Below are positions 9,296-55,437 of a stretch of DNA of 64,000 nt, one piece after another (the stretch's first letter is position 1; each line of letters opens with the position of its first letter). Position numbers and translations under genes: made by a program. This DNA comes from Flavobacterium haoranii (GTDB lineage Bacteria > Bacteroidota > Bacteroidia > Flavobacteriales > Flavobacteriaceae). Where the stretch lies: the NCBI RefSeq assembly GCF_009363055.1, contig NZ_CP045292.1, positions 1,488,001 to 1,552,000 on the forward strand. The letters are read 5' to 3'. The notes under the pieces are model-generated. The model made no database searches. It worked only from the letters and a program-made list of their open reading frames with translations, and was not told the origin of the DNA.

Positions 9296-10153
9296 TTATT
9301 TACCAGCTTTAAACAAAAACTCTTTTTCTTCTTTCGTTAAACTATCGTAACCAGATTGACTAATTTTATCCAAAATATCATCAATTTTCTTTTGATTGAT
9401 GTCCTTAGAAAAATTTGAATTAGTAGTATTGATGTTGCTATTCTTATGAACAGCTTTAAATGGGGGCTTCTTTTTCTTAGGTTTTTGCAAATCTTCGAAA
9501 AAGTCTTGCAATATAGAAATTGGTTTTGATAAATCAAATCCTCTTTGTAAAGTTTTAATATAGATAAAGCCAAATAAAGCTCCTGCTAAATGCGCTAAAT
9601 GTCCACCACTATTTTCAATTGGTAATTGTACCAAATCGAATAATAATAAAACTAGTGCAACTTGCCATAATTTTACCCTGCCAATTAAAGCCAATCGCAA
9701 TTCCATGTAAGGCGCATAAACAGCTGTGGCAATTAAAACACCCATTATAGCACCACTTGCTCCAACTAATTTTGTTGAAATTCCAAGCGTAGAATAAATT
9801 CCTACATACACTAAACCCGAAAATATTCCAGTAAGAATATACAAACCTAGCATTTGCCTGTCGGTAAAAAAAGTAGCAAATAATCTTCCAGCAAAGTGAA
9901 GCACCATCATGTTGAATAATAAATGTAAAAATCCAGCATGTAAGAACATATAAGTAAATACTGTCCAAGGATTTGTACCAAAAACTGTTACCGATGACGA
10001 CAATGCCAACCAATTAGGGTACACAAAAGTTTTATAAGAAAAGCTATAAAACAAAGGCAATGAAATAATATACAACGCCACATTAAGGAATATCAACTTT
10101 TGTGCTATTCCTCCTGTTTTGTATTGAAATTTTAAATCGTCTAAAATTGGCAT
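9296..10153 (-). CDS. Rhomboid family intramembrane serine protease
   Basis: The 285-residue protein has about six membrane helices. It carries HAGFLHLLFNM in the second helix, the catalytic serine motif VGASGAIMG and the catalytic histidine in GGHLAHLAGALFGF. The C-terminal 70 residues are a basic cytosolic tail. Rhomboids cut transmembrane helices within the membrane. It is the second of two tandem rhomboid genes downstream of mutL, a frequent arrangement in Flavobacteria, and its stop codon abuts the next gene. Confidence 0.92.
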   Translation of the reverse strand: MPILDDLKFQYKTGGIAQKLIFLNVALYIISLPLFYSFSYKTFVYPNWLALSSSVTVFGTNPWTVFTYMFLHAGFLHLLFNMMVLHFAGRLFATFFTDRQMLGLYILTGIFSGLVYVGIYSTLGISTKLVGASGAIMGVLIATAVYAPYMELRLALIGRVKLWQVALVLLLFDLVQLPIENSGGHLAHLAGALFGFIYIKTLQRGFDLSKPISILQDFFEDLQKPKKKKPPFKAVHKNSNINTTNSNFSKDINQKKIDDILDKISQSGYDSLTKEEKEFLFKAGK

Positions 10154-55000: not shown

Positions 55001-55032
55001 AAAAAAAAGCCGCTAACAAAAGTTAACGGCTT
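55001..55032 (-). terminator. Rho-independent terminator after rpsU
   Basis: GCCGCTAAC (55009-55017) pairs with GTTAACGGC (55022-55030), with one mismatch and a long T-tract on the minus strand, directly after rpsU and before xerC. Confidence 0.88.
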
Positions 55033-55056
55033 CTTATAATATAAGTAACTAAGATA

Positions 55057-55251
55057 TTAAGACTCTACAGAATCCTTTAATCTTTGAATATACTGCGCTT
55101 TTTGAATTTCAGCTCTTCTAGCAACAGAAGGTTTTGTAAACTGCTGACGAGATCTTAATTGACGTACAGTTCCAGTTTTATCGAATTTTCTTTTGTAGCG
55201 TTTTAACGCTTTATCGATGTTTTCACCGTCTTTAATTGGAATAATTAACAT
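55057..55251 (-). CDS. rpsU: 30S ribosomal protein bS21
   Basis: The 64-residue protein (MLIIPIKDGENIDKALKRYKRKF ... LKDSVES) matches the basic, helical bS21 family. In Bacteroidota bS21 sits at the platform and helps cover the 3' end of 16S rRNA, so anti-Shine-Dalgarno pairing is mostly blocked. Unlike every other gene checked in the window, this one has a strong Shine-Dalgarno sequence (55260-55269) 8 bases before its ATG. A consensus promoter lies just upstream, so the mRNA leader is only about 22-25 bases. A terminator follows. Confidence 0.95.
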   Translation of the reverse strand: MLIIPIKDGENIDKALKRYKRKFDKTGTVRQLRSRQQFTKPSVARRAEIQKAQYIQRLKDSVES

Positions 55252-55259
55252 AATTTAGG

Positions 55260-55269
55260 CACCCCCTTT
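55260..55269 (-). promoter_or_regulatory. Strong Shine-Dalgarno sequence of rpsU
   Basis: On the minus strand AAAGGGGGTG is close to the ideal AAGGAGGTG and its 3' end lies 8 bases before the ATG. Such sites are nearly absent elsewhere in Flavobacteria, so this is a probable autoregulatory element. Confidence 0.85.
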
Positions 55270-55280
55270 CATTTAGGTTG

Positions 55281-55310
55281 CAAACTTATAAAATAATTTT
55301 GAATTACAAA
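55281..55310 (-). promoter_or_regulatory. rpsU promoter (Bacteroidota consensus)
   Basis: On the minus strand TTTG (55307-55310) and TAAGTTTG (55281-55288) are separated by 18 bases, matching the -33 and -7 consensus of Bacteroidota. Transcription should begin near 55273-55276. Confidence 0.75.
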
Positions 55311-55345
55311 TTACAAATTACGAATTATTTTATTTTTTGCTTTTA

Positions 55346-55437
55346 GCCCTGATGGCAGCGGCATCCTGTTATTGCGATTTTAAGATTGCTTTGTCCCTCG
55401 CAATGACAGATACAGCGAACAGCAGGAATAGCTTCTA
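55346..55437. repeat. Dispersed intergenic repeat with CATCCTGT / ACAGCAGGA blocks
   Basis: A locally GC-richer stretch of about 90 bases, unlike its surroundings, contains AGCGGCATCCTGTTATTGCGA and TCGCAATGACAGATACAGCG with partly inverted relationship (ATTGCGA/TCGCAAT). It looks like a member of a second dispersed intergenic repeat family and sits between rpsU and the acyl-CoA dehydrogenase gene. Confidence 0.5.

Follow-up and report, generated by a model that had tools for sequence, protein, structure and literature searches.

The rpsU gene of Flavobacterium haoranii, which encodes the ribosomal protein bS21, is preceded by an extended Shine-Dalgarno (SD) sequence that is very probably the cis element of a published bS21 feedback loop. 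The mechanism of this site is already known from the loop described for Flavobacterium johnsoniae (McNutt et al. 2023, PMC9976891), and the F. haoranii site extends the set of cases by one species. What the present analysis adds is that there is one SD-bearing copy in each multi-copy genome whose leaders were read, and that the SD-less copies are often found beside genes for RpoD-like sigma factors. The window is the whole stretch of 64,000 nucleotides that was analysed, and its rpsU locus contains the following features.

55057 to 55251, minus strand: rpsU, encoding bS21 (64 amino acids, Tyr54 present), 55.4 bits against the TIGR00030 cut-off of 28.95
55260 to 55270, minus strand: extended SD GAAAGGGGGUG, forming 11 base pairs with the genome's own 16S tail at -19.0 kcal/mol
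55281 to 55288, minus strand: -7 element TAAGTTTG, a match at offset -37 to TAnnTTTG, which we take to be the Bacteroidota -7 promoter motif
55307 to 55310, minus strand: -33 element TTTG, 18 nucleotides 5' of the -7 element, at offset -59
55255 to 55272, minus strand: upstream in-frame AUG-AAA-GGG-GGU-GCC-UAA, overlapping the SD; a putative upstream open reading frame (uORF) of possibly 5 codons, read from the sequence
55004 to 55035, minus strand: intrinsic terminator-like hairpin 3' of rpsU (1 found versus a shuffle mean of 0.4)

On the minus strand, the order of elements is TTTG (55310-55307), 18 nucleotides, TAAGTTTG (55288-55281), a C, AACCTAAATG, AAAGGGGGTG (55269-55260), 8 nucleotides and the ATG (55251-55249). 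A preliminary description of this DNA had placed a strong SD 8 nucleotides before the rpsU ATG behind a promoter of the form TTTG-N18-TAAGTTTG, and both are read directly here. A similar flavobacterial promoter consensus is quoted in PMC3587595. Together, the promoter match and the terminator-like hairpin are sequence signals that flank rpsU as a single gene, and the hairpin makes this gene look monocistronic. There is nothing unusual about the fold of the leader (z -0.5). When the leader is folded with the first codons, the minimum-energy structure pairs part of the SD and the centroid leaves the SD open. A Flavo-1 RNA (RF01705, 61.9 bits, cut-off 42) is encoded on the other strand at 55341-55433 (+), immediately upstream of the rpsU promoter.

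The genome is a single contig of 2.87 Mb with three 16S matches, whose ends read ...GGCTGGAACACCTCCTTTCT / GGAACACCTCCTTTCT, and the anti-SD CACCTCCTTTCT is intact in all three. One of the 11 base pairs formed between the rpsU leader and the 16S tail is a G-U pair, and other tail lengths give values from -17.1 to -19.6 kcal/mol. The value of -19.0 kcal/mol passes the published threshold of < -13 kcal/mol, although our program differs from the free_scan used in that paper (PMC9976891). The SD had been called near-ideal; it falls short of perfection, because one core G (GGGGG core) is located opposite a U.

Sites of this strength are rare in the part of the genome examined. Pairing energies were computed for a sample of 464 kb (~16% of the genome), consisting of the window and 20 stretches of 20 kb, in which the starts scored were the first ATGs of 427 open frames with a minimum length of 90 amino acids rather than gene calls. 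The strongest of these 427 other starts reaches -10.7 kcal/mol and the best of the mock windows reaches -9.7 kcal/mol. The level of -6 kcal/mol is reached or exceeded by 16 starts versus 30 mock windows, and thus weak SDs are less frequent at starts. At -8 or stronger there are 6 starts versus 4 mock windows, and at -10 or stronger there are 4 versus 0. The 285-amino-acid open reading frame (ORF) at 9296-10153 (-), rhomboid-like by eye, ranks next to rpsU in SD-like pairing among the scanned window ORF starts of at least 90 amino acids, with AGGGGTGT at an unusual distance of 14 nucleotides before the ATG (-10.5 kcal/mol).

The rpsU SD also exceeds that of every other ribosomal gene start scored in the window, the next being rplL at -7.0 kcal/mol, followed by rplK (+1.5 from a TTG start or -3.5 from an ATG start), rplA (-0.7) and rplJ (0.0). 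A value of -7 is the limit for a strong SD according to Jha et al., as quoted in PMC9976891, and rplL is situated at this limit. The start of secE scores -4.0 (GTG) or -2.4 (ATG) kcal/mol, and further window starts are those of tuf (-0.5), nusG (0.0), rpoB (0.0), xerC (+0.2), hpf (+1.7) and an acyl-CoA dehydrogenase gene (+2.0). These values agree with the earlier statement that no comparable site precedes the other ribosomal genes of the window or tuf. Outside the 464-kb sample, the genome was covered by one SD pattern rather than by pairing energy. There are 13 occurrences of AAGGRGGTN4-11ATG in the whole genome versus 23 for the reversed control. Among the 11 of these 13 that were inspected, rpsU is the only obvious gene start and the others are found inside longer open frames, including one that starts a 90-amino-acid ORF within a frame of 221 codons. 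Many equally strong sites elsewhere in the genome, which the preliminary description had named as a finding that would speak against its reading, were not found among the 427 ORF starts and the 11 inspected occurrences.

Conservation of the leader, which had been proposed as a check, is evident among relatives. The site is present in all 80 named loci that constitute the best 80 of 474 relatives, with energies from -18.1 to -21.9 kcal/mol; being the best 80, these are close relatives. From another search, 29 Flavobacterium loci were read, several of them from genomes shared with the 80, and all 29 score -19.0 kcal/mol or stronger. The SD of the window is weaker than that of most relatives (-19.0 versus about -20.7 kcal/mol) because of its central G-U pair and the C that follows GUG. 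The GGGGG wobble core occurs in 7 of 81 leaders, that of the window included, and 6 of these 7 also carry an upstream AUG (uAUG) with a stop codon. One contig labelled as a Limnohabitans metagenome-assembled genome (MAG) (L011) carries a Flavobacterium-type rpsU locus with xerC and is probably mis-binned.

In F. johnsoniae, bS21 acts with bS18 and bS6 to hide the 16S tail, ribosomes without bS21 translate rpsU better, and reporters react to bS21 depletion only when the SD is strong (PMC9976891). The same paper reports that extended SDs stronger than -13 kcal/mol mark rpsU across much of the phylum, and that ~80% of Flavobacteriales satisfy both criteria used there. In F. haoranii, a short rpsU mRNA would be produced from its own promoter, with a leader of ~22-28 nucleotides, the extended SD and a terminator. 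Complete ribosomes, with the 16S tail held in the bS21/bS18/bS6 pocket, would make poor use of the rpsU SD. In 30S particles lacking bS21 the tail would be exposed, allowing it to pair with the rpsU leader so that bS21 is made. The anatomy, the pairing, the rarity within the genome part examined and the conservation come from the present analysis and the biochemistry comes from the F. johnsoniae work, by analogy with which we infer that the loop operates in F. haoranii. The preliminary description had likewise proposed a hidden anti-SD and feedback via ribosomes without bS21, and this interpretation is supported, as it agrees both with the mechanism in print (PMC9976891) and with the anatomy of the locus.

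The F. haoranii and F. johnsoniae rpsU genes share an extended SD, an intact anti-SD, Tyr54, an apparently monocistronic arrangement and a short leader, predicted at 25 nucleotides in F. johnsoniae (PMC9976891). Differences from the F. johnsoniae system are the central G-U pair in the GGGGG core, an in-frame uAUG with its stop codon, and a second bS21 gene without an SD. Should the product of this second gene be able to occupy ribosomes, it might allow a partial bypass of the loop in this genome.

Two other explanations for the rpsU leader must be weighed. The more probable of the two, which we nevertheless consider unlikely, is that the uAUG inside the SD sharpens the switch. The leader reads AUG AAA GGG GGU GCC UAA AUU AUG, and thus the uAUG opens a frame of five codons that closes three bases before rpsU. 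Perhaps complete, SD-blind ribosomes start at the uAUG and stop at this UAA, and SD-using ribosomes set on the rpsU AUG would cover the uAUG. Starts in F. johnsoniae are said to depend on the absence of nearby AUGs (PMC9976891), which favours such an arrangement. In addition, an in-frame uAUG is found in 39 of 81 leaders, and a stop codon precedes rpsU in 31 of these 39 versus 12 of the 42 leaders without the uAUG (Fisher 6e-6, uncorrected for kinship). However, on the xerC tree (79 of the 81 rows) there are ~4:0 independent pairs in the expected direction, which is not significant (median p 0.125). Furthermore, there is no stop codon in 8 of the 39 uAUG leaders, and a 25-nucleotide leader would place the uAUG only ~4 nucleotides from the 5' end. 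The 42 leaders without an in-frame uAUG, many with ACG in its place, indicate that the SD is independent of it. As a conserved switch the uORF was rejected, its counts being suggestive and its kinship-corrected test not significant, and it is retained as a rival only. Still less credible is the view that feedback plays no part and that the SD is a plain, strong ribosome-binding site, constitutively serving a small protein that is abundant. Toeprints show that wild-type F. johnsoniae ribosomes also form very stable complexes with rpsU mRNA (PMC9976891), as such a site would. Against this, mock windows show SD-like pairing at -6 kcal/mol more often than starts do, the tested window ribosomal genes do not exceed the value for rplL, and the published reporters respond to bS21 depletion only with a strong SD (PMC9976891). 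Moreover, 51 of 53 accessory bS21 genes described below have no SD, and thus an SD is no general need of bS21 genes. The feedback loop remains the preferred reading of the rpsU site.

A search of the genome with the window's bS21 revealed a second bS21 gene outside the window at C1:738787-738978 (+), whose product is 62% identical. It scores 41.8 bits against the TIGR00030 cut-off of 28.95, and both bS21 genes pass the Pfam (PF01165) cut-off. Tyr54 is present, and there is no extended SD before this gene (0.0 kcal/mol). It is a bS21 gene, yet it is located outside the SD-regulated class. A tRNA-Arg gene lies ~430 bases upstream. When 150 Flavobacterium genomes were searched with bS21, 136 gave a match and two matches were found only in the window's genome; several of the 14 genomes without a match are incomplete. 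A MAG of F. haoranii (L001) also has two bS21 genes, the second of which is SD-less and is located downstream of a tRNA-Leu gene. Relatives of the second protein in the protein database are 78-95% identical, and one of them is named Flavobacterium okayamense. In the bS21 protein tree, which is based on 64 columns with weak support and in which long database proteins were trimmed to begin at MLI where present, the second bS21 groups with an accessory type that follows a cold-shock gene in several genomes. Upstream of the second gene, within L086 (G000:C1:730000-748000), there are ORFs that by eye look like those for a restriction-modification specificity subunit, for a regulator of the ImmA/IrrE type and for a two-component pair, which makes a genomic island possible. 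Judging from the missing SD and the retained Tyr54, the second bS21 is probably translated outside the loop, and its product could fill vacant ribosomes and damp rpsU.

A phage origin for this gene was considered and is not supported, given that the phage bS21 proteins found with it are 51.8-57.8% identical and that 13 of 17 viral rows cluster separately in the tree. A start was found in 31 of 32 viral bS21 loci, and the strongest leaders score -12.1 (L150), -7.1 (L118) and -5.8 (L117) kcal/mol, with the others being weaker. The strongest of these 31 leaders, that of L150, carries AAAGGAGG before its start.

Accessory copies of bS21 are widespread in the family. There are 347 Flavobacteriaceae genomes that are at least 90% complete, and bS21 is found in 342 of them, with two or more matches in about 136; this latter count is approximate, as it was hand-copied from a table and its matches may include fragments (G411). 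Three of these 136 genomes have contamination > 5%, and in one the second copy is below the Pfam cut-off (G353). Leaders were read in 45 of the 136, the window's genome included, that were picked for few contigs or three matches and represent 38 genera, and in the F. haoranii MAG, giving 46 genomes. The second bS21 of G411 is partial and was dropped because no start was found, which leaves 46 SD copies and 53 SD-less copies in these 46 genomes. There is exactly one extended-SD copy (-17.2 to -21.9 kcal/mol) in 45 of the 45 genomes with two or more readable copies, and there is also one in G411. Among the 53 SD-less copies, 51 are between -3.5 and +2.9 kcal/mol. The two exceptions, with intermediate SDs, are L237 (G288) at -9.8 and L211 (G323) at -12.0 kcal/mol, and L211 has His in place of Tyr54. 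Tyr54 is found in 46 of 46 SD copies and in 50 of 53 SD-less copies. The protein tree separates the accessory copies from the SD copies, whose 46 rows fall into what is essentially a single group (2 changes) that also takes in some database and viral proteins.

Accessory genes that lack an SD would have to be translated by ordinary, SD-blind ribosomes. Their leaders are rich in A at positions -8 to -11 (0.64-0.85), and there is no close match to the start signature of F. johnsoniae, as the frequencies of A at -3, -6, -12 and -13 are 0.25, 0.40, 0.43 and 0.32. The paucity of A at the positions named for F. johnsoniae weakens the argument for SD-blind translation. Most of their products retain the pocket residue Tyr54, which contributes to covering the anti-SD. 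Accessory bS21 is probably made outside the loop, and it could fill vacant ribosomes and damp the SD copy.

Many accessory genes are located close to genes for RpoD-like sigma factors, so named because their best matches are to RpoD models, below curated cut-offs, and because the single match that the sigma query has in the window's genome is 80% identical. A sigma gene lies within 2 kb on the same strand for 28 of 45 SD-less copies versus 0 of 40 SD copies (Fisher 7e-11, uncorrected for kinship), a count that omits G482 (L333, bS21-NYN-sigma) and G150, with G482 being absent from the sigma search. An RpoD-like sigma gene directly precedes 21 of the 53 SD-less copies and ends 28-111 nucleotides upstream of them. 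Seven further SD-less copies, three of them in genomes already counted, have a more divergent sigma gene (48-65% identical to the query) located 71-1410 nucleotides downstream. The order bS21, NYN protein and RpoD-like sigma, tightly packed, is found in five loci (L320, L321, L322, L323 and L333), with a cold-shock gene in front of the cluster in L320 and L321. NYN and OST-HTH domains were confirmed by Pfam in both loci tested, L320 and L333. In the sigma tree, which covered 13 of the 21 directly linked sigmas, these 13 form one supported clade (97/98) apart from 20 of 21 unlinked sigmas, that of the window's genome included. There is no sigma linkage for the second bS21 of the window's genome, in which the sigma query matches a single place, C1:2734009. 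A palindrome, TTTAGGATAATCCTAAA, located before accessory bS21 genes was ruled out as an operator, as it overlaps the 3' end of the upstream sigma gene (...KTYLG*). A DUF2797 gene and a gene beginning MPI.. recur beside accessory bS21 in L204, L335, L320, L329, L330, L331 and L332, with DUF2797 tested by Pfam in L320 and recognized elsewhere by similar sequence. Since these neighbours occur both with and without sigma linkage, they suggest one ancestral locus.

The gene arrangement suggests that accessory bS21 may act with an alternative sigma factor. There is almost an even chance, however, that the closeness of the two genes is an inherited neighbourhood with no functional coupling. Two or three RpoD-like sigmas are found in each of the 21 linked genomes, but two are also found in 7 of 9 single-bS21 genomes outside Flavobacterium, and only one is found in the nine genomes that carry this bS21 type at another place (in 7 of them beside a recurrent other gene, the remaining two being G212 and G345), a count uncorrected for kinship. 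All four Flavobacterium genomes tested, among them the window's genome and the F. haoranii MAG, likewise have a single RpoD-like sigma. Mere inheritance is less easily reconciled with the existence of two arrangements, in which sigma is either before or after bS21, and with the tight packing of five loci. For F. haoranii itself there is the additional possibility, which we doubt without dismissing it, that the second bS21 gene has no regulatory meaning and is a passenger, whether recent, non-functional or derived from a phage. A second match in 0 of the 149 other Flavobacterium genomes searched (14 of the 150 having no match at all), the adjoining tRNA-Arg gene and the occurrence of bS21 genes in phages are all compatible with a passenger. 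However, the gene is intact and over the bS21 family cut-off, it has retained Tyr54, and its database relatives are 78-95% identical. It also groups, with weak support, with chromosomal accessory copies rather than with the main phage cluster.

The enterobacterial macromolecular synthesis operon has the order rpsU-dnaG-rpoD. In both this operon and the loci described here, bS21 and an RpoD-type sigma are encoded together. The Flavobacteriaceae loci differ in that accessory bS21 is joined to a paralogous sigma, in the order sigma-bS21 or bS21-NYN-sigma and in some cases preceded by csp, that no dnaG was seen among the loci read, and that the SD copy of bS21 has a separate location. The association of rpsU with the primase gene and rpoD is also mentioned in work on Francisella tularensis (Trautmann and Ramsey 2022, PMC9578407). 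That species likewise has several bS21 genes per genome, and its different bS21 homologues enter ribosomes (PMC9578407). In Flavobacteriaceae, by contrast, the copies differ in their translation signal, with one SD copy and the rest mostly SD-less, and the family belongs to the group whose studied ribosome hides its anti-SD with the help of bS21. A literature search that covered listings, abstracts and passages yielded no description of accessory bS21 in Flavobacteriaceae or of its linkage to sigma genes. The groups with extra bS21 copies listed in PMC9976891 include none from Bacteroidota. A census of ribosomal proteins (PMC3353972) states that paralogues are enumerated, and its tables may list some. 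Two RpoD homologues per genome were noted in marine Flavobacteriaceae (Dokdonia) in PMC3587595. S21 has 0 occurrences in the main text of that paper, and the bS21 linkage is described here.

These observations cause us to consider, tentatively, a wider reading that we regard as possible rather than probable. Many Flavobacteriaceae would have one housekeeping bS21 that is autoregulated via its SD, together with SD-less accessory copies that are often co-inherited with an alternative RpoD-like sigma (as sigma-bS21 or as bS21-NYN/OST-HTH-sigma, sometimes behind a cold-shock gene). Perhaps expression of the accessory gene swaps the bS21 of the ribosome and closes the anti-SD without feedback, which would turn the SD copy off, and the specificities of transcription and of the ribosome would then change together. 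The window's genome would carry an unlinked version of the accessory gene.

Among published examples of specialised ribosomes in bacteria, the rpsU SD is a clean one. The loop was established in Flavobacterium, a genus whose searched genomes almost always contain a single bS21 gene. If it is true that more than a third of the family has a further SD-less bS21, often beside a spare sigma, then the feedback model would be incomplete there. Species that naturally have one copy or multiple copies would then allow the question of whether bS21 exchange reprogrammes translation to be asked directly.
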